Shown here in pieces: positions 93-31,289 of a stretch of 34,236 nt of DNA (its first letter is position 1; each line of letters begins with the position of its first letter). Under the pieces are notes generated by a model. That model had not been told where the DNA came from and did no database searches. It saw only the letters and a list, made by a program, of their open reading frames with translations. The stretch covers positions 1 through 34,236 of the forward strand of contig CAIYZD010000601.1 in the NCBI GenBank assembly GCA_903930585.1, given 5' to 3'. The translations under genes were made by a program, and so were the position numbers. The stretch is from an uncultured Geobacteraceae bacterium. Its GTDB lineage: Bacteria > Desulfobacterota > Desulfuromonadia > Geobacterales > Pseudopelobacteraceae.

Positions 93-959
93 TTATAGCA
101 TGTTTGATTTAGAAATGGAATTATCCAGTCTGTTGGCGCCGGTGCCGTTCCAGAGTCCCAGGGTGTAGCCGATTAACGGAGTTGTTACACCGGATGCCGG
201 ATCATAACGGTTGATAATGCCGCCGTCATGCTTGATGCCGATATCGCGGCCGATACCATAGTTGGCAACATACTGGGCGGTGCGAATGGTCGGACGCTGG
301 TCTTCCAGTGAGAGGTTTTCCTGTCCGAACGGCAGCAACGTCTGACCAAGTGTCACGCTGCCGATCCATGCAGGCTCAAGAGTTTTTTTTGCCGTATGCA
401 AATCTACCGAAATGTAGGCATCCGCCAGAGCCGGTGTTTGAAGCTGGGTGTTGCTGCTGTTGGCAGTACCTGAGTTTGTTGCTCCAACATCCTTGCCCTG
501 TCCGGCCCAGATCAGGCTGGTCTTGTAGCGAACGTCAAAGTCATCGACCGGGTCTTCACGAAGGTTGCCGCCCAGTCCAAGGGTAACATACTGAATGGCG
601 AAACCGTCTTTAGCTGTGCCGTTGCCGCTGGCGCCGAAGTTACTGCTGGTATAACCGCCGGCAATCGCTCCGGTTACGTTGACAGTCCAGCCGGAATTCC
701 ATTTTTTCTTATCTGCTTCATCGATCAAGTCTTTGAGGGCATCCAGATCCTGTCTGGTTGCATATTCCGGTTTTGAAACGGCATCATTTCCGGAGTCAAC
801 CGCTATGGCCGGAGCAACCTCCTTGTCCGTATACGCGGACGTATCCTGTACCGTGCCGGAATTTTCCGCCGTTGCGACTTCTTCATCCGCCCAGGCCAGA
901 TGGGTTCCTCCGAGCGATGCGACTGCAAGTATAATTGCAACAGTTTTTCGTATTTTCAT
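93..959 (-). pseudogene. Outer-membrane porin, 3'-truncated
   Basis: The 288-codon reading frame starts at an ATG at 959, just after GGGAGGTAGTA, and begins with a clear signal peptide (MKIRKTVAIILAVASLGG, cleavage after HLAWA). A charged linker with a short heptad-like stretch (TRQDLDALKDLIDEADKKK) follows, then beta-barrel sequence of the Geobacter porin type (alternating strands, 'GQTLLPFGQENLS', 'LGLWNGTGANRLDN'). Relatives continue well past the 'NGxGxNxxDxN' motif with several more strands. Here homology stops and eight unrelated residues lead to a stop at 93-95. The probable mobile-element gene at 1-63 begins immediately beyond, so the barrel is almost certainly incomplete. Two leader hairpin/terminator elements in series and a strong promoter lie upstream. 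The intact protein would be an outer-membrane channel; its substrate is unknown, although its leader suggests a sulfur-linked regulon. Confidence 0.75.
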
Positions 960-1070: not shown

Positions 1071-1127
1071 AAAAAAAGGAGGCCAAGGATGTTGATTCCT
1101 TGACCTCCAGACTTTCTGGTCAGTCAT
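1071..1127 (-). promoter_or_regulatory. Leader element B: UGA/AG hairpin overlapping an intrinsic terminator
   Basis: Second, gene-proximal copy in the porin leader. Read on the minus strand: GAC, then UGA, then a CCAGA/UCUGG stem with a three-base loop, then AG and GUC. Its 3' side merges into a 12-bp terminator stem (1097-1108 with 1078-1089, one G.U pair), which is followed by seven U residues (1077-1071). Forming the small GAC/GUC helix would take bases from the base of the terminator stem, so the two folds compete. Confidence 0.8.
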
Positions 1128-1244
1128 TTGTGCGGTTTTTCCATGGCAGCATGTATGGAAGGCAGCTTTTTCTGCCGGCACAAAAAGTGATGTACAACGT
1201 ACGGAATTGTACAACCAACGGTGTGAGCACCCGGTTACGGGCAT

Positions 1245-1298
1245 AAAAAAAGAGGTCGAGGTAGTTTCCTCGACCTCCAGTTTACTGGTCAGTCAGTT
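1245..1298 (-). promoter_or_regulatory. Leader element A: UGA/AG hairpin overlapping an intrinsic terminator
   Basis: Promoter-proximal copy in the porin leader. Minus-strand order: ACUGAC, UGA, CCAG, loop UAAA, CUGG, AG, GUC. The terminator pairs 1268-1277 with 1252-1261 (10 bp, six-base loop) and ends in seven U residues (1251-1245). It starts about 20 nt after the predicted transcription start, so any transcript toward the porin must pass this terminator and then element B. The structure is seen directly; the regulatory role is inferred. Confidence 0.82.
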
Positions 1299-1322
1299 CT
1301 TATGTCTATAATTTTTGTATAT

Positions 1323-1352
1323 ATTGTAGCCTAGTTGTAGCCTATCTGTCAA
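1323..1352 (-). promoter_or_regulatory. Sigma-70-type promoter for the porin, with an embedded direct repeat
   Basis: A perfect -35 TTGACA (1352-1347), an 18-nt spacer and a near-consensus -10 TACAAT (1328-1323) face the porin. A 10-bp direct repeat TAGGCTACAA (1344-1335 and 1333-1324, 11-bp period) fills the spacer and overlaps the -10. Repeats one helical turn apart could be a regulator site. The predicted start is near 1316, shortly before leader element A. Confidence 0.7.
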
Positions 1353-1367
1353 GAAAAAAATCTATAA

Positions 1368-2216
1368 TCATAATGCCGAACAACCCGCGCCAATAAGGCC
1401 GACCGCATCAGCCCGGCATTGCTGGCAGCCACGGAATTGCGCAATGACCTGCTCATTTGCTGCGCGGACGGATTCGAGATATTCGCTCGTGGGGGGAATA
1501 ATGTGCGACAACTCCGCCTGGGGGATTATCGGCATGATATTCATGACAAATGCCCCGGCCTGGCTGACCTTTTCGGCAATAAGCGGAATCTGCTGCTCAT
1601 TTATTCCGGGTACAAGAACCGTATTTATCTTGATCACCAGGCCCAGTTCAGCGGCTTTGCGGAGCCCTTCAAACTGGTTGTTGATCAGGATGGCGGCCCC
1701 TTCTTCGCCTTGATACGGATTTCCACTGTAGATCACATGCCGGTAAATCCGGGCGCCGACAGCGGGATCAACCGCATTGATCGTCACCGTAAGGCTGTGC
1801 AGATTGACGTCGGCCAGCTCGTTTATCCGGTCCGGCAGGGCGAGCCCGTTGGTACTCATGCAAAAGAGCAGTTCTGGGAACTCGGACTTCACGAGGCGGA
1901 ACGTTTCAAAGGTTGAATCATTTGCCAGCGGGTCGCCAGGGCCGGCAATGCCGACAACCTTGATGATCTTGCCCAGTTGTTCATCGGCCATCACTTCGCG
2001 AACTTTATCAAGTGCCTGGACCGGGGTGAGCAGACGGCTCGTGACGCCGGGGCGTGACTCGTTGGCGCAGTCATGCTTGCGTTCGCAGTAGCCGCACTTG
2101 ATATTGCATTGTGGCGCCACCGCCAGGTGGATACGCCCGTTTTTGTGGCGGTTACCGCCAAAGCAGGGGTGACCGTGAACAACGCGATCTTTTGTACAGG
2201 TTGGATTCATGTCCAT
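1368..2216 (-). CDS. NifB-like radical SAM protein outside a nif cluster
   Basis: 282 residues. The N-terminal half carries the NifB signature: HPC (16-18), a radical SAM CxxxCxxC at Cys37, Cys41 and Cys44 (CNIKCGYC), and then ERKHDCANESRPGV, nearly identical to NifB. The C-terminus has CQQCRADAVGLIG (Cys264, Cys267), the other hallmark that helps bind NifB's accessory clusters. The length matches the NifB SAM core without the NifX-like domain. NifB proper fuses two [4Fe-4S] clusters with a methyl-derived carbide into the nitrogenase cofactor precursor. Here the gene is last in a cysteine-biosynthesis operon and no nif genes are visible. The ATG at 2216 shares its first base with the preceding gene's TAA, implying translational coupling. 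It may be a nifB placed near a sulfur donor, or a paralogue with another Fe-S or sulfur-insertion role. Confidence 0.85.
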   Translation of the reverse strand: MDMNPTCTKDRVVHGHPCFGGNRHKNGRIHLAVAPQCNIKCGYCERKHDCANESRPGVTSRLLTPVQALDKVREVMADEQLGKIIKVVGIAGPGDPLANDSTFETFRLVKSEFPELLFCMSTNGLALPDRINELADVNLHSLTVTINAVDPAVGARIYRHVIYSGNPYQGEEGAAILINNQFEGLRKAAELGLVIKINTVLVPGINEQQIPLIAEKVSQAGAFVMNIMPIIPQAELSHIIPPTSEYLESVRAANEQVIAQFRGCQQCRADAVGLIGAGCSAL

Positions 2217-2398
2217 TATATGCCGCTTCCGTCAATATGTCCCTGCCTGTTCAGGCGGATTTTTTCACTCTTGTCAACCTGGATAACACGGCTATCCTGA
2301 ACAATGAGAGTGACCGTTCCAAACTTGATGGATGTGAGAGCTTCCCGTATTACCTTTTCAAGTTCGCGATTCCATGGGTCAGGATTTGGAGCAGCCAT
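2216..2398 (-). CDS. Small YezD-like protein (DUF2292)
   Basis: 60 residues. The segment from about 13 to 50 (LEKVIREALTSIKFGTVTLI, then VQDSRVIQVDKSEKIRL) matches the YezD/DUF2292 family: a helix followed by a beta-hairpin with 'GTVTLIVQDSRVIQVD'. Members are small soluble proteins of unknown biochemistry that often sit in sulfur-assimilation operons, as here. The start at 2398 lies one base after the cysteine synthase stop codon, and its stop overlaps the next start, so it is the middle of a translationally coupled trio. An upstream in-frame ATG at 2539 lies wholly inside cysteine synthase and is unlikely. Confidence 0.8.
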   Translation of the reverse strand: MAAPNPDPWNRELEKVIREALTSIKFGTVTLIVQDSRVIQVDKSEKIRLNRQGHIDGSGI

Positions 2399-2399
2399 A

Positions 2400-3353
2400 T
2401 TAGATCCCCTCAAACAAGGCGGTTGAAAGATACCGCTCTGCCCCGTCGGGCAGGACAAATACAATAGTTTTGCCGGCGAATTCATCCAGATTGGCCAGGC
2501 GGATTGCGGCGGCTGCAGCTGCGCCGCCGGAAATACCAACCAGTATCCCTTCTTCCTTCGCTAAGCGTTTGGCGAATTCAATCGCTTCTTCACTGGAAAC
2601 CTGCTCAACGCGGTCGATTACCGAAAGATCAAGGGTATCGGGAATAAAACCGGCGCCGATACCTTGAATCTTGTGTGGAGCCGGTTTGATTTCCTGGCCG
2701 GCCCGTTTCTGGGTAATGACCGGGCTTTCCTGCGGCTCAACGGCAACGGAAATAATCTTCTTTCCCTTGGTGTTTTTGATATAGCGTGAAACGCCGGTGA
2801 TGGTTCCGCCGGTGCCGACGCCCGATACAAAAACGTCAATGTTGCCGTCAGTATCATCCCAGATTTCCGGTCCGGTTGTTTTTTCATGAATCTCGGGGTT
2901 TGCCGGGTTTTTAAATTGCTGAGGCAGAAAATATTTATCCGGTTCTGCTGCGGCAATCTGTTCCGCGCGGTTGATGGCGCCTTTCATTCCTTCCGCACCG
3001 GGTGTCAGAATCAGGTGGGCGCCGAGTGCTGCCAGGACACGCCGACGTTCAATACTCATGGTTTCCGGCATGGTCAGTGTCAGTTTATAGCCACGGGCCG
3101 CCGCAACATACGCTAAAGCAATTCCGGTGTTGCCTGATGTCGGTTCGATGATTTCAACGCCCGGCTTGAGTACTCCACGTTTTTCGGCGTCAACAATCAG
3201 GTTGGTTCCAATGCGGTCCTTGACCGAATAGGCCGGATTACGCCCTTCTACCTTGGCCAGGACAGTTGCTTTTGCTCCTGCAGTGACGTGATTCAATTTG
3301 ATCAGCGGGGTGTTGCCGATGGACTGCGAGTTGTCAGAATAAATCTTGCTCAT
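2400..3353 (-). CDS. cysK: Cysteine synthase (O-acetylserine sulfhydrylase)
   Basis: 317 residues, the usual CysK length. It makes L-cysteine from O-acetylserine and sulfide in the cytoplasm, using PLP. The PLP lysine lies in [11 protein letters not shown] near the N-terminus. The substrate/asparagine loop is [12 protein letters not shown], the phosphate-binding glycine loop is [10 protein letters not shown], and the C-terminal signature is [12 protein letters not shown]. The start at 3353 is chosen because AGGAGG (3366-3361) is correctly spaced before it; a start at 3386 would add 11 unlikely residues and lack such a site. It lies 36 bp after the Rrf2 regulator gene and one base before the YezD-like gene, in one operon preceded by leader element C. 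Confidence 0.95.
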
Positions 3354-3389
3354 AATTACATCCTCCTTTTGTGTGGTGTTGCTCAACTC

Positions 3390-3851
3390 CTAAATGCTGT
3401 AATCGATTATTTGCGATTTACGGAAGCTTTCCGTTTCTGCTTTATGAATCATATCTGCAAGCGTTGTTGCTTCAAGAACCGACGTTATGGCATCTTTTAC
3501 ATCGCTCATGATCAGATGGATACCGCAACAGGAAGGGTCGTTCCCTTCTTCACAGCTGTTAAGGCCGTTCTCATTCAGGCAGTGGACCAGCGAAAATCCT
3601 CCTTCAAGGATTTTGATGACACTGGCAATAGTAATTTCAGAAGGTTCATGAGCCAGGCGATATCCCCCCCCCTTACCCGTGCGGCTGAGCAATAAGCCAC
3701 CTTTTCGGAGCGACAGCAATATGAACTCAAGAAATTTCTTGGGTATTTTTTCCGTATGTGCCAAGTCTGCAATGAGAACCGGACGATTGTCCGGTTGCTG
3801 GGCCAGAAAACTTAGTGCCATGAGAGCATATTTGGTTTTTTTTGAAATCAT
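3390..3851 (-). CDS. Rrf2-family transcription regulator (IscR/CymR-like)
   Basis: 153 residues. The N-terminal winged helix (MISKKTKYALMALSFLA, the recognition helix near IPKKFLEFILLSLRKGGLL and the GKGGGYRLA wing) is typical of Rrf2. Four cysteines (91, 100, 108, 109) and His112 occupy the region where IscR binds its [2Fe-2S] cluster, so Fe-S sensing is plausible. CymR-type members instead respond to cysteine status through cysteine synthase. Being first in an operon with cysK fits a cysteine or Fe-S sensor controlling its own operon. The ORF is preceded by leader element C, so both transcription initiation and attenuation may act here. Confidence 0.88.
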   Translation of the reverse strand: MISKKTKYALMALSFLAQQPDNRPVLIADLAHTEKIPKKFLEFILLSLRKGGLLLSRTGKGGGYRLAHEPSEITIASVIKILEGGFSLVHCLNENGLNSCEEGNDPSCCGIHLIMSDVKDAITSVLEATTLADMIHKAETESFRKSQIIDYSI

Positions 3852-3872
3852 GACATTAGTGTCCCTGTCAAT

Positions 3873-3927
3873 ATAAAAGAGGTCAAGAGAAGTATCTCTT
3901 GACCTCCGGTTGTCCAGTCAGTCAGTT
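3873..3927 (-). promoter_or_regulatory. Leader element C: UGA/AG hairpin overlapping a terminator before the cysteine operon
   Basis: Minus-strand order: AACUGAC, UGA, CUGG, loop ACAA, CCGG, AG, GUC. The upper stem is CUGG/CCGG rather than CCAG/CUGG, a compensated change that supports real pairing. The terminator pairs 3895-3906 with 3879-3890 (12 bp, loop UACU) and runs into four U residues, so its U-tract is weaker than in A, B and D. It ends about 25 bp before the Rrf2 start codon. Confidence 0.8.
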
Positions 3928-3958
3928 TATTCTAAAGTATATATAATTTGTAGATAAA

Positions 3959-3988
3959 ATAGTAATACAAACCTGAAGTTGATGTCAA
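3959..3988 (-). promoter_or_regulatory. Promoter for the rrf2-cysK operon
   Basis: TTGACA (3988-3983), an 18-nt spacer and TACTAT (3964-3959) on the minus strand. The start point predicted near 3952 places leader element C about 25 nt into the transcript. The spacing is the same as at the porin and rhodanese promoters. The -35 is perfect and the -10 matches at four of six positions. Confidence 0.6.
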
Positions 3989-4005
3989 GCACTTTTTTTA
4001 AAATA

Positions 4006-4032
4006 AAAAAAGGGTATGAACTATCCTTTTTT
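4006..4032. repeat. Inverted repeat between two divergent promoters
   Basis: AAAAAAGG (4006-4013) and CCTTTTTT (4025-4032) flank a short centre in which GGGTA and TATCC can also pair. It lies in the AT-rich gap between the divergent promoters of the cysteine operon and the rhodanese genes. It could be an operator, a bidirectional terminator-like hairpin, or simply A/T-tract symmetry. Confidence 0.4.
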
Positions 4033-4072
4033 AGATCATATACAAAAATGATAGTTATTATATGAATTGTTC

Positions 4073-4102
4073 TTGACAAGACATATTCGCTTTTGGTATG
4101 GT
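4073..4102 (+). promoter_or_regulatory. Promoter for the rhodanese genes
   Basis: TTGACA (4073-4078), an 18-nt spacer and TATGGT (4097-4102). The predicted start near 4109 puts leader element D at the very 5' end of the transcript. It diverges from the cysteine operon promoter about 85 bp away, so a shared regulator could act on both. Confidence 0.55.
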
Positions 4103-4110
4103 CTCGAAAA

Positions 4111-4188
4111 ACGAGGCTGACCAGAAAAACTGGAGGCCAGGTACGGAACGGGGTAATTGCGCCGCGTCCATACCTGGCCTCTTTTTTT
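4111..4188 (+). promoter_or_regulatory. Leader element D: UGA/AG hairpin overlapping a terminator before the rhodanese genes
   Basis: GGC (4115-4117), UGA (4118-4120), CCAG (4121-4124), loop AAAAA, CUGG (4130-4133), AG (4134-4135), GCC (4136-4138). The lower stem is GGC/GCC instead of GAC/GUC, a compensatory change. The terminator pairs 4134-4143 with 4171-4180 around a long GC-rich loop and ends in seven U residues (4182-4188). As in the other copies, the 3' strand of the small hairpin is the foot of the terminator. Confidence 0.8.
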
Positions 4189-4231
4189 GTGCCCGAAAAC
4201 GTATTCGAACAGACAGGACAATAATCGCGTC

Positions 4232-4261
4232 ACGAGCTGACCAGACAGAATGGAGGCTATT
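4232..4261 (+). promoter_or_regulatory. Leader element E: second UGA/AG hairpin, no terminator seen
   Basis: AGC (4235-4237), UGA, CCA (4241-4243), seven-base loop, UGG (4251-4253), AG, GCU (4256-4258). The lower stem is AGC/GCU, a third compensated version. Unlike A-D, no stem followed by a U-tract comes after it; instead the purine-rich GAAAGAAGGAGGAG follows. A similar purine-rich stretch (AAAGAAAGGAGGAA) follows element B in the porin leader, so the distal leader may contain a further shared part. Confidence 0.6.
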
Positions 4262-4388: not shown

Positions 4389-5561
4389 ATGAAATTTCGC
4401 ACCCTGATCACAATCCTGGCACTTTCGGCAACGACAACCGGAGCGGCTCTCCTCTCCGGATGCAACAGTTCGTCGGCAACCGCCGCTTCCGCCCCGTCAA
4501 CAACGGCTACATTGAGTGACTACTTTAAATCGACCGACTGGGTGGCTACGCACTCCAGCGACGCCAACTTTGTTATTGTCGATACCCGTTCGGCAGCCAA
4601 CTACAATGCCGGTCATATTCCCAATGCTATCAGTATCCCGAGGGATCAGTTTTATTTCCCACGGAAGGTAATTGATGCAACAACAGGCAAATACAAGCTT
4701 CAGGCAGATAATGTTACGCCGGTTCAGATCGCCTATGATATTCCGACTCCGGCAGAATTAATCGACATCCTTACCAGAAACGGTATTACTCCCGATTCAA
4801 CGGTCGTCTCCTACGACAACGATACCTCTTCCTATGGTGGCCGGTTTACCTGGGTGCTGAAAACATTCGGTCATACCAATGCGTATACCATCGATGGCGG
4901 CATTGACAAATGGAAGGATGTGGATGGCCGGGTACTCAGCACGACCGCTGTAACGCCGACGGCAAGCACGAAACCGTACAAAATTGCCAGCTACAATAAC
5001 CATCGCATCACCAAGGCTGACCTTGCCGCAGTTATCGATACCGCTAACGGCAATGTCACCAAGGCTGGTTACGTGATTTCCGACGTCAGAACGCCGAGTG
5101 AATATACCGGGTTTGTAACAACGGTTACATCGGGCACCCAATCCGGCGGCGTATGGTCACAAAGCACGACGCCTCGTGTAGGAAGCGCAAACGTGGGCGC
5201 CCGTCCGGGGCATATTCCGTATGACAAGTTCAGTGATTATGAATCAGACGCCTTTACGGACTACATCAACCCCACAACCTTACTCCCCGTTGCCAGTACG
5301 CTGCAAGCAGGCAGAAACGTAAAAGTGCTTAAGAGCGCAGCGGACCTTCAGGCACATTTCAACGCTCTTGGCATCACCAAAGACAAAATCGTATACAACT
5401 TCTGCGAAGGCGGTTTCCGCTCCGGCGTTTATACGCTGATCCAGCTCGGTCTCGGCTATACCAGCGTCTATAACTACGATGGTTCATGGAACGAGTGGTC
5501 AATACAGGATGCCACACTGTATCCGGTTGTAACCGGCGACGGTCGTACCAGCGGACAATAG
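4389..5561 (+). CDS. Two-domain rhodanese lipoprotein
   Basis: 390 residues with a lipoprotein signal peptide ending in a lipobox (LLSGC, Cys25), so it is probably anchored in the envelope facing the periplasm. The first rhodanese domain (about 45-190) has the fold motifs (VDTRSAANYNAGHIPNA; YGGRFTWVLK) but no active-site Cys where the loop should be. The second (about 215-385) carries CEGGFR, with Cys339 as the expected persulfide-forming residue, and 'NYDGSWNEWS' at its end. This inactive-plus-active arrangement is that of thiosulfate sulfurtransferases. About 30 extra residues (GTQSGGVWSQSTTPRVGSAN) interrupt the second domain. AAGGAG precedes the ATG. Leader elements D and E precede it. 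The sulfur donor and acceptor are unknown; sulfur, selenium or tellurium oxyanion chemistry are possibilities. Confidence 0.88.
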   Translation: MKFRTLITILALSATTTGAALLSGCNSSSATAASAPSTTATLSDYFKSTDWVATHSSDANFVIVDTRSAANYNAGHIPNAISIPRDQFYFPRKVIDATTGKYKLQADNVTPVQIAYDIPTPAELIDILTRNGITPDSTVVSYDNDTSSYGGRFTWVLKTFGHTNAYTIDGGIDKWKDVDGRVLSTTAVTPTASTKPYKIASYNNHRITKADLAAVIDTANGNVTKAGYVISDVRTPSEYTGFVTTVTSGTQSGGVWSQSTTPRVGSANVGARPGHIPYDKFSDYESDAFTDYINPTTLLPVASTLQAGRNVKVLKSAADLQAHFNALGITKDKIVYNFCEGGFRSGVYTLIQLGLGYTSVYNYDGSWNEWSIQDATLYPVVTGDGRTSGQ

Positions 5562-5845: not shown

Positions 5846-7645
5846 ATGGGATGGCATGAGTTAAAAAAGGTTGCAACCGTAATACTGGTCGCAACGGTCA
5901 TGGCGGGATGCGGCAGCAGCGCGTCAGAAAAAAAACAGGCTCCGGCAGCAAAATCGTACAGTGATCCAACCATGATTACTGACGCGGCAACCCTGAAAGC
6001 ATCACTTGGCACGGCAGGTACCGTTGTTATCGATGCCAGGTCAGCGTCGGAATATAACGCCGGTCACATACCCGGTGCTATAAATTGCATCTGGCAGTCG
6101 TTTGCCACCGTGACAACGGGAAACCCGGGTGATGCGAACTGGGGAGTATTGAAGAGTCCTGCCGAAATCGGAACCGCCCTTGGCAACCTTGGAATTAATG
6201 CCTCCTCTCAGGTTATTGTATATGCGGACGCACCAAATGGGTGGGGCGAGGATGGGCGTATTGTCTGGATGCTTCGGATGGCTGGCGTGGCTCATTCGAA
6301 AATGCTGAACGGTGGCCGTCAGGGATGGCAGAAGGCCGGTTATGGACTTACCACGACGGCATCTGCTGCGCCGGTTCCGGTTACGTTTTCCGTCACTTCG
6401 CTCGACAACGTGTATACCGTCGACCGGACCTGGATTCTGGCCAATATGTCCCGATCGGACGTGAAGATTATTGACGCCCGTGATCCGGAAGAGTATGCCG
6501 GAGCCATTAAGTACGGGGAAGTCCGGGGCGGACATGTGAAAGGGGCTATCTCTCTTCCTTTCAACACGTCGCTTTATACCAATGATCCGGCAAATCCGGG
6601 AATTATCAAGAGTCAGGATGCGTTGGAGACGCTCTTCACCGCAGCGGGAATCAGCAAAACCGATACCATTGTCTGCTATTGCACCAAGGGGATCCGTTCC
6701 GGTCTGATGACCATGATTCTGCGCATGGCCGGGTACAATAAGGCGGTAAACTATGACGCTTCTTTTTACGATTGGGCGGGAGATGCAACGGCTCCCGTTA
6801 CCGCCTATAGCGATCCCGGTATTGTTACATATGCAGGAGTCCTGAACGGCACACTGTCATCCACCGTTGTGCTGGATGCCCGTTCCGCCGCTGATTATGC
6901 CGCAGGCCACATTCCTGGCGCAATCAACGTCATGTGGCAGACCTTTGCAACCGTCTCAACGGGAAGTCCCGGCGACCCTGGCTGGGGTGTGCTGAAAACG
7001 GCGGCGGAAATCGCTTCCCTGCTTGGAGGGCTGGGGATCGACAGCAGCAAGAATGTGGCGGTGTATGCGGGCGCTCCGGTCGGTTGGGGTGAAGATGGCC
7101 GCATTCTCTGGATGTTGAGGATGGCCGGAATAAACAAAGCGCGGATTTTGAACGGAGGGTATCAGGCATGGGTCAACGGTGGATACGCTGTTGACGCCAA
7201 CAGCGTCACACCGGTGTCAACGGCCTTTTCACTGGCTGCGCTTGATGCCACCTATACGGTTGATAAAGCATGGATTATAGCGAATAAATCGAACAGCAAC
7301 GTGAAGATTCTCGACGTCCGCGCCGCAGACGAGTACGCTGGTGCGGTAAAATACGGTGAAAAACGGGGCGGTCATATTCCGGGTGCTATTTCGCTGCCAT
7401 TTGATCAGGCACTTTTTGTCAACAACGGCACTACCCCGGGCTTTTTCAAAACAGCCGAACAGCTTGAAGCAACCTTCAGCGCCATTGGCCTGAAAAAGAG
7501 CGACACCATCGTCAGCTACTGCACCAAAGGAATCCGCTCGGCAGAAATGACCATGGCTCTTCGCATGGCCGGCTATTCAAAAGCGATCAATTACGACGCG
7601 TCATATTATGAATGGGCCGGTGATGCAACTCTTCCGGTTCAGTAG
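5846..7645 (+). CDS. Four-domain rhodanese lipoprotein from internal duplication
   Basis: 599 residues; AAGGAG lies nine bases before the ATG. The signal peptide ends in a lipobox (VMAGC, Cys22). Four rhodanese domains follow as two near-copies of a two-domain unit. Domains 1 and 3 have GWGEDGR in place of the catalytic loop and lack the Cys. Domains 2 and 4 carry CTKGIRS, with Cys279 and Cys559 as expected persulfide residues. Each unit opens with a 'YSDP' segment, then a 'DARSA..Y.AGHIPGAIN' stretch, and ends in 'NYDAS.Y(D/E)WAGDAT'. The two catalytic cysteines are 280 residues apart, equal to one unit. This is roughly twice the size of a usual two-domain sulfurtransferase. It probably transfers sulfane sulfur, or a selenium analogue, in the envelope; the partner is unknown. 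It may be cotranscribed with the outer-membrane protein that follows. Confidence 0.9.
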   Translation: MGWHELKKVATVILVATVMAGCGSSASEKKQAPAAKSYSDPTMITDAATLKASLGTAGTVVIDARSASEYNAGHIPGAINCIWQSFATVTTGNPGDANWGVLKSPAEIGTALGNLGINASSQVIVYADAPNGWGEDGRIVWMLRMAGVAHSKMLNGGRQGWQKAGYGLTTTASAAPVPVTFSVTSLDNVYTVDRTWILANMSRSDVKIIDARDPEEYAGAIKYGEVRGGHVKGAISLPFNTSLYTNDPANPGIIKSQDALETLFTAAGISKTDTIVCYCTKGIRSGLMTMILRMAGYNKAVNYDASFYDWAGDATAPVTAYSDPGIVTYAGVLNGTLSSTVVLDARSAADYAAGHIPGAINVMWQTFATVSTGSPGDPGWGVLKTAAEIASLLGGLGIDSSKNVAVYAGAPVGWGEDGRILWMLRMAGINKARILNGGYQAWVNGGYAVDANSVTPVSTAFSLAALDATYTVDKAWIIANKSNSNVKILDVRAADEYAGAVKYGEKRGGHIPGAISLPFDQALFVNNGTTPGFFKTAEQLEATFSAIGLKKSDTIVSYCTKGIRSAEMTMALRMAGYSKAINYDASYYEWAGDATLPVQ

Positions 7646-25746: not shown

Positions 25747-25757
25747 ACCAGCCCAAT

Positions 25758-25865
25758 AAGGCCCTGGGGGAGTTCATCCGAACTGAGATTCGTCTGTTGC
25801 TGAATGTGGCACAGCGGGAACCCTTTGCACCTGAACCGGGTAATTCCGGCGTAGGAAAGCGGCTT
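25758..25865 (+). promoter_or_regulatory. TPP riboswitch aptamer (THI element)
   Basis: The conserved core is present in order: GGGGGAGTTCATCCGAACTGAGA-type 5' arm (25765-25788, with CTGAGA), a variable arm, then ACCCTTTGCACCTG (25820-25833) and CCGGGTAATTCCGGCGTAGG (25836-25855). The arms AAGGCC and GGCTT can close P1. It lies directly upstream of a thiE-thiD fusion and thiC. Thiamine pyrophosphate binding would switch the genes off. Confidence 0.93.
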
Positions 25866-25919
25866 GCGGGATGCATAACTATCCAGCCGCCTGATGTTGT
25901 ATGTCAGTGCGGTTTTTTT
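25859..25919 (+). terminator. TPP riboswitch expression platform: antiterminator and terminator
   Basis: GCGGCT (25859-25864), which also belongs to the 3' side of P1, pairs perfectly with AGCCGC (25885-25890) as antiterminator. Those bases in turn form the foot of the terminator: CCGC and CTGA (25887-25894) with TCAG and TGCGG (25904-25912), followed by seven T. Ligand-stabilised P1 frees the terminator, so TPP should cause premature termination. Confidence 0.85.
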
Positions 25920-31213: not shown

Positions 31214-31289
31214 GCCATTTTAGCTCAGTTGGTAGAGCACATCACTCGTAATGATGAGGTCGTCGGTTCGATTCCGACAAATGGCTCCA
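31214..31289 (+). tRNA. tRNA-Thr (anticodon CGT)
   Basis: A full cloverleaf with acceptor stem GCCATTT/AAATGGC, D arm AGCTCAGTTGGTAGAGC, anticodon stem ATCA/TGAT around CTCGTAA (anticodon CGT, 31247-31249), T arm GTCGG-TTCGATT-CCGAC and encoded CCA. It reads ACG codons. It stands alone, with a terminator just after it, at the border of an AT-rich region. Confidence 0.96.

Follow-up and report, generated by a model that had tools for sequence, protein, structure and literature searches.

A hairpin overlapping a terminator likely guards sulfur-acquisition genes in several bacterial phyla, with YezD/OscA as its probable partner

The stretch of DNA analysed in this study, 34,236 nucleotides from an uncultured Geobacteraceae bacterium (hereafter the window), carries five copies of a small RNA hairpin ahead of sulfur genes, and one of these genes, yezD, is proposed here to encode the partner of the hairpin. 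A preliminary description of this DNA had placed the five copies, and a sequence pattern and a model of the hairpin (R1) agree with it on their positions. Copy 1 (1272..1294, minus strand), with the core GAC-UGA-CCAG-UAAA-CUGG-AG-GUC, lies downstream of a promoter-like site, TTGACA-18-TACAAT (1323..1352, minus), which agrees with the consensus at 11 of 12 positions and is a consensus match only. Its 3' strand is shared with a terminator found by folding (1251..1278, minus). Copy 2 (1102..1125, minus) stands in tandem with copy 1 ahead of an open reading frame called porin (93..959, minus), and it too is overlapped by a terminator (1078..1108, minus). Copy 3 (3901..3923, minus), detected by model R1, has the compensatory upper stem CUGG/CCGG, overlaps a terminator (3878..3907, minus) and follows just downstream of a promoter-like site, TTGACA-18-TACTAT (3959..3988, minus; 10 of 12). 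It forms the leader of the operon rrf2-cysK-yezD-nifB, all on the minus strand, which encodes an Rrf2-family regulator (3390..3851; PF02082), a CysK-like PALP enzyme (2400..3353; PF00291), the DUF2292/OscA-like protein YezD of 60 amino acids (2216..2398; PF10055, 60.6 bits against a cut-off of 22) and a radical S-adenosylmethionine (SAM) protein (1368..2216; PF04055), for which "NifB-like" is the label of the preliminary description.

The plus strand carries the leader of the rhodanese genes. A promoter-like site, TTGACA-18-TATGGT (4073..4102; 10 of 12), stands just upstream of copy 4 (4115..4138), the core of which is GGC-UGA-CCAG-AAAAA-CUGG-AG-GCC and which is overlapped by a terminator with a U tract (4132..4188). 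Copy 5 (4235..4258) is in tandem with copy 4 and has no overlapping terminator. A rhodanese-domain protein (4389..5561; PF00581) and a multi-domain rhodanese protein (5846..7645; PF00581 in four stretches) follow. Pfam confirmed the downstream genes that had been named earlier (Rrf2, PALP or CysK-like, DUF2292, Radical_SAM and rhodanese). The porin is a divided case: the frame in the window has no Pfam match of its own, and a protein of the same cluster matches Porin_O_P.

Model R1 was made from nine copies in the genome of the window, namely the five copies above and four more. At E <= 0.05 it returned exactly these five copies in the window and nothing else. The pattern CTGACCAGN{3,9}TGGAGG matched eight times in the 5.9 Mb genome of the window and never when reversed, and the five copies are therefore not due to chance. 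This assembly (G000) is a draft of 854 contigs with 5.3% contamination, and genome-wide copy numbers are approximate. Across the class (146 genomes), a stricter pattern gave 117 matches, of which the 12 that fell outside the order mostly had different loops; the reversed pattern gave 4 in total. The copies are often grouped on one contig. At the gathering score, Rfam recognised only a tRNA and a thiamine pyrophosphate (TPP) riboswitch elsewhere in the window and gave the hairpin no family, in agreement with its earlier description as unassigned. Of five sub-threshold Rfam matches between 900 and 4700, all but one lie at copy 3 or its terminator. In 19 distant loci Rfam gave four tRNAs at the gathering score and nothing over the hairpin. 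The preliminary description had named in advance a known Rfam family, a lack of covariation and a lack of association with gene starts as the results that would speak against it; we found no Rfam match at the gathering score, covariation among the copies, and matches lying before genes.

The hairpin consists of a lower stem of 2-3 bp, a 3x2 internal loop UGA/AG, an upper stem of 4 bp and an A-rich loop of 4-5 nt. Covariation was analysed in 129 copies (127 distinct) on 45 stretches from the genome of the window and its relatives. In this alignment, which was fitted to the model and leans towards its structure, 94.6% of cells were paired (99.2% in the upper helix), double changes occurred in all seven pairs, and none of 500 shuffles reached any of five measures; slid registers were only 5.7-46.2% paired. 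A cross-phylum alignment of 50 sequences chosen with a second model, R2, 36 of them from the YezD-found loci outside Desulfuromonadia described below, was paired in 97.4% of cells (99.5% in the upper helix) and contained 53 double-change cells; no more than 1 of 500 shuffles scored equally high. The earlier view that pairing is selected, with compensatory changes, is thus upheld in both sets. The internal loop had been called invariant, which is nearly right. On the UGA strand U is kept in 122, G in 126 and A in 128 of the 129 copies, and on the AG strand A in 129 and G in 128, so that the positions range from 122 to 129 and the loop is not strictly invariant. In roughly one copy in three the lower stem is reduced to 2 bp, the outermost pair being unpaired in 43 of 126 scored copies. 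The terminal loop has 5 nt in 73 copies, 4 nt in 55 and 7 nt in one.

Folding also agreed with the statement that four copies of the window overlap a strong terminator and that the copy at 4232 does not, with energies of -6.5 to -10.5 kcal/mol for the hairpins compared with -19.9 to -35.3 kcal/mol for the four terminators. In the larger set, the terminator begins inside the 3' strand of the hairpin in 123 of 129 copies, compared with 53 of 2580 random positions and 24 of 1263 nearby positions (about 2%). A looser test without control had given 125 of 129; the stricter test with controls was used. It was passed by 30 of 43 hairpin matches outside Desulfuromonadia (5 of 860 random positions) and by 54 of 64 Bacillales hairpins beside yezD. 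Since the hairpin and the stronger terminator share bases, transcription should by default terminate, and readthrough would be expected whenever a factor holds the hairpin. A promoter-like site of at least 9 of 12 matches was located within 40 nt upstream of 25 of 129 copies, compared with 31 of 2580 random positions. Because such sites stand just upstream of copies 1, 3 and 4, the transcripts probably begin with these hairpins. Ahead of the rhodanese gene, the second of the tandem copies is without a terminator in both genomes in which it was seen (window 4235-4258; L092, 10220-10252), which suggests another role or decay.

The distribution of the hairpin was compared with that of yezD. Model R1 matched in 89 of 141 Geobacterales genomes at E <= 0.1 and in 67 at E <= 1e-3. 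The yezD gene (DUF2292) is present in 64 of the 141, all of which fall among the 89 genomes with a motif match, so that the remaining 52 lack it. At E <= 1e-3, yezD was found in 60 of 67 motif genomes compared with 4 of 74 others (Fisher test). Elsewhere in the phylum, the motif was found at E <= 3.1e-4 in eight genomes that do not belong to Geobacterales; a DUF2292 gene lies inside the 3-kb locus in six of them (L111, L113, L114, L115, L117 and L118) and was not found in the 3-kb loci L112 and L116.

The hairpin was also sought from the side of the protein. Loci were taken from named genomes by DUF2292 alignment alone (79 loci, from the best 80 of 348 relatives), and 59 of them were placed outside Desulfuromonadia by record label; the phylum names used here are such labels, and many of the records are metagenome-assembled genomes. 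Model R2 was derived from Geobacterales before, and without, these loci. The blind test rests on R2 because a third model, R3, and a later hairpin finder were made after the cross-phylum sequences had been seen. In the 59 loci, R2 gave 43 matches at E <= 0.05, distributed over 36 loci, and 41 of the 43 lie on the yezD strand. Nineteen of the 43 fall from -5 to 250 nt 3' of the yezD stop codon, where 1.8% of the bases lie (p = 3e-22); some Bacillus hairpins overlapping the stop codon lie beyond the -5 nt limit and are not counted here. The loci with a hairpin a short way 3' of yezD include ones with the labels Thermodesulfobacteriota, Armatimonadetes, Actinomycetota, Nitrospiria and Brocadia, together with several of Bacillota. 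A plasmid of Cytobacillus spongiae carries, in this order, a gene annotated as YezD, the hairpin, a terminator and the gene for phosphoadenylyl-sulfate reductase. In the Bacillus loci L198 (hairpin at 4127-4149), L209 and L210, the UGA of the internal loop serves as the stop codon of yezD; in L212 the stop codon is a UAG in the upper stem. With its stop codon inside the hairpin, translation of yezD could interfere with folding of the hairpin.

In Bacillales, 159 genomes (the order of a Neobacillus genome) were searched with model R3. At E <= 1e-3, 61 genomes have both the hairpin and yezD, none the hairpin only, 8 yezD only and 90 neither; at E <= 0.02 these numbers become 65, 8, 4 and 82. The yezD match in G644, which scores 22 bits and lies within a frame of 711 aa, seems spurious. 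As a control we used cysH, which is present in 119 of the 159 genomes. Among the 52 genomes with cysH and without yezD, the hairpin was found in none at E <= 1e-3 and in 7 at E <= 0.02. The presence of the motif is tracked by yezD and is not predicted by cysH alone. A same-strand hairpin lies near 64 of 83 Bacillales yezD genes, compared with 6, 2 and 7 for the opposite-strand, reversed and complemented controls.

Three Bacillales genomes with yezD and without a model match (G638, G713 and G728) carry a variant hairpin, with U-A as the first pair of the upper stem, beside a variant YezD in which T-Q replaces V-Q or I-Q. When the genes were sorted by these features, YezD without T-Q went with a C-G first pair in 45 of 46 cases and YezD with T-Q went with a U-A first pair in 15 of 18 (2x2 p = 8e-11, a value that overstates independence because the species are related). 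Of the five genomes with two kinds of pair, G606, G661, G684 and G700 match on both and G699 does not. A duplicate (L315, the same gene as L286) was dropped from this table, the 19 genes without a hairpin were left out, and the classes were named after inspection of the data. Although relatedness inflates the p-value and the classes are post hoc, the matching of classes is the best evidence in the sequences that YezD would read RNA. The second (T-Q) class with its own hairpin variant is seen at L314, L286/L315, L316 and other loci, and similar U-A hairpins also lie ahead of TauE and solute-binding proteins.

What can be read from the DNA comprises the hairpin, its covariation, the terminator overlap, the sulfur regulon, the co-occurrence and adjacency of yezD, and the matched classes. 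On this basis we consider it quite probable that the element is a transcription antiterminator controlled by YezD, in which YezD would bind the hairpin and prevent termination when sulfur is short; we infer the binding, the ON direction and the signal. In the proposed mechanism, RNA polymerase would leave the promoter (or the end of yezD) and the small hairpin would fold first, its 3' strand GGAGG doubling as the 5' foot of the much stronger terminator. Without the factor, the nascent RNA would refold into the terminator and transcription would stop. When sulfur is short, YezD would bind the hairpin by contacting its UGA/AG internal loop and the adjoining stem, and would keep the 3' strand out of the terminator, and polymerase would read into the sulfur genes. 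Tandem copies would act as successive gates. Copies that lack a terminator may have a different mode of action, such as control of translation. The signal might arrive through the amount of YezD or through a ligand; in the window, yezD itself sits in the rrf2-cysK operon with its own hairpin copy. The element would accordingly be a broadly distributed attenuator with a strong candidate partner, that is, a new RNA element and a new candidate family of RNA-binding proteins predicted to work by protein-dependent antitermination. With slightly less assurance, we also think it probable that YezD/OscA (DUF2292) is the first representative of a family of antiterminators that bind RNA, which would recognise one conserved 23-nt hairpin and govern sulfur-starvation regulons in several phyla, and that in some Bacillales duplicated YezD proteins would read two distinct hairpin codes in one cell.

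Several observations weigh against control by YezD. The support comes from sequence, and yezD could be a member of the regulon and not its regulator. Four Geobacterales yezD genomes have weak motif matches only (E 0.0017 to 0.048). In Bacillales, 19 of the 83 yezD genes lack a nearby hairpin; R2 gave no match at E <= 0.05 in 23 of the 59 loci outside Desulfuromonadia, and no hairpin is seen at two plasmid loci of Novosphingobium that encode DUF2292. In the other direction, the motif occurs at E 0.0015-0.02 in eight Bacillales genomes that lack yezD; one of them, G707, contains cysH, and upstream of this gene lies a plausible hairpin. A C-G hairpin accompanies three of the T-Q genes, and a U-A hairpin adjoins a single degenerate protein that was scored as the other class. 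The AlphaFold2 model of YezD, a helix and a beta-hairpin, is modest (predicted local distance difference test 78, predicted template modelling score 0.48); a structure search with it gave no significant match, and no solved relative was found. In seven Geobacterales genomes with the motif at E <= 1e-3 (G024, G108, G139, G146, G195, G203 and G205) no DUF2292 gene was found, a relaxed profile giving only chance-level matches in two of them (E 0.76 and 1.46).

These seven genomes count in favour of a very small riboswitch, in which a metabolite reporting sulfur status is bound, the bound form blocks the terminator and yezD is only one of the regulated genes. The near-invariant internal loop, the A-rich terminal loop and the sulfur regulon are also in keeping with it. 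A length of 23-24 nt is, however, very small for an aptamer. Moreover, yezD tracks the motif whereas cysH does not, and a metabolite would not explain why the class of YezD predicts the class of the hairpin. We therefore regard a riboswitch as improbable.

The terminator test was failed by 13 of 43 matches outside Desulfuromonadia and by 10 of 64 Bacillales hairpins, and antitermination may for this reason not be the rule everywhere, which also counts against the proposed mechanism. YezD might bind the hairpin and act otherwise, by promoting termination or by affecting RNA decay or translation. The co-occurrence and class data would fit this equally, copy 5 and, by the test used, the 13 matches just mentioned lack a terminator, and yezD ends at the loop UGA in L198, L209 and L210. 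The bases shared by hairpin and terminator in 123 of 129 copies nevertheless imply that binding of YezD should favour readthrough, and the oscA phenotype reported in the passages of the literature considered here is one of loss of function. Such a different action of YezD is thus unlikely. It is very doubtful that some other universal factor, such as an ANTAR protein, recognises the hairpin. Each of the 12 Geobacterales genomes searched does have a single ANTAR match, but the motif-bearing Bacillales genome G606, with three hairpin copies at E <= 0.02, was the one genome of 15 searched without an ANTAR protein, the loops have 4-5 nt in 128 of 129 copies, unlike the hexaloops of ANTAR targets, and CAT_RBD is absent from the 12 Geobacterales genomes searched.

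Antitermination by YezD would resemble known systems. As in the ribonucleic antiterminator (RAT) hairpins of BglG, LicT and SacY, to which the preliminary description had compared the element, the terminator is overlapped by a small hairpin whose internal loop is asymmetric. There too the switch may follow the gene that encodes its antiterminator protein, as in licT. The element differs from the RAT consensus, which has loop sequences of its own, in its loop, one UGA/AG that is near invariant in 129 copies, and in its protein, since YezD is small (34-78 aa as delimited) and modelled as a helix and a beta-hairpin. The comparison therefore holds for the mutual exclusion of hairpin and terminator (123 of 129) and is not supported for family membership: no CAT_RBD (PF03123) protein was found in the 12 motif-bearing Geobacterales genomes searched, while two of the three other genomes searched, both Bacillota, have such proteins. 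Leaders controlled by ANTAR proteins contain paired hairpins with hexanucleotide loops, whereas the unit here is a single hairpin with a loop of 4-5 nt. The likeness to the ANTAR proteins EutV and NasT is that of RNA-binding antiterminators with mutually exclusive antiterminator and terminator, as far as the passages considered describe them (PMC3369931, PMC3369936). The element would work like the BglG/RAT or ANTAR systems and probably belongs to neither. In the part of their account considered here, Naville and Gautheret (2010; PMC2965389) describe an attenuator in bacilli before a sulfonate ATP-binding cassette (ABC) operon and a gene of unknown function. This attenuator may be the same element; that part of the account differs in proposing no protein partner.

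The family of YezD nearest in the NCBI collection is OscA, sulfur starvation response protein (NF033785). The window YezD scores 31.6 bits and two further YezD proteins 40.7 and 24.2 bits, under the cut-off of 85, and they are not assigned to the OscA equivalog. YezD has invariant E, K and R residues near its end. In the passages considered, Pseudomonas corrugata becomes susceptible to chromate when oscA is inactivated, and a link of this gene to sulfur starvation is described (PMC2996968, PMC3596284); these passages mention no RNA target or mechanism for OscA. YezD shares with OscA, as so described, the small size, the adjacent sulfur genes and, through the reported phenotype, the link to sulfur starvation. 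A yezD deletion in B. subtilis is reported, in the passage concerned, not to lose viability in deep starvation (PMC6385201). Among the matches listed from the open-licence literature there was no paper on the hairpin or on YezD as an RNA binder, and one may exist elsewhere. For DUF2292/OscA, a widespread family for which the literature passages give no mode of action, the hairpin would supply a candidate target and mechanism. The two YezD/hairpin classes might also serve as a pair of possibly orthogonal small RNA-protein parts. The preliminary description had the structure and the sulfur theme right; it missed the YezD partner encoded in the same window and the reach of the element far beyond Desulfuromonadia.

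Its claim of a leader element of sulfur genes is borne out by the regulon. In Geobacterales loci, the hairpin is followed by rhodaneses, Rrf2-CysK and radical SAM proteins; by NifH-like, nitrogenase component 1-like and iron-molybdenum (FeMo)-cofactor domain proteins; by NMT1-type ABC transporters, a Cys/Met pyridoxal phosphate (PLP) enzyme and SAM synthetase; and by corrinoid, URO-D and RACo proteins. At L079 (4239-6522) and other loci of cluster family 24, it lies ahead of an operon for DsrE, TusA, a type 2A encapsulin (SrpI-like, with a cyclic-nucleotide domain), an aminotransferase of class V, which is the class of the cysteine desulfurases, and serine acetyltransferase. Such encapsulin operons perhaps provide a sulfur-storage compartment, and the regulon is a set for sulfur acquisition and perhaps storage. 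Sulfur starvation is named as the signal on account of this gene set. In YezD-found loci, the genes next after the hairpin include those for cysH, ATP sulfurylase, cysK, the Cys/Met PLP enzyme and nitrite/sulfite reductase, as well as for NMT1 proteins, NifH, TauE, Porin_O_P and a JAB protein. The predicted sulfur regulon would thus comprise, in many uncultured bacteria, sulfonate-type uptake, nitrogenase-like and encapsulin operons and perhaps tRNA-Cys.

A tRNA-Cys gene lies near yezD in 11 of 23 loci scanned, mostly of Lachnospiraceae, with the anticodon GCA in 10 and ACA in one. Since the hairpin stands between yezD and tRNA-Cys in some loci, it may control tRNA-Cys. The tRNA-Cys gene follows within a few hundred bases after yezD in L148, L149, L152, L154, L164, L179, L183, L187, L205, L207 and L215; L205, with the same arrangement, is labelled Alistipes. 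In the window itself, the tRNA gene and the TPP riboswitch recognised by Rfam are located at 31214-31286 and at 25756-25874 (plus strand), respectively.

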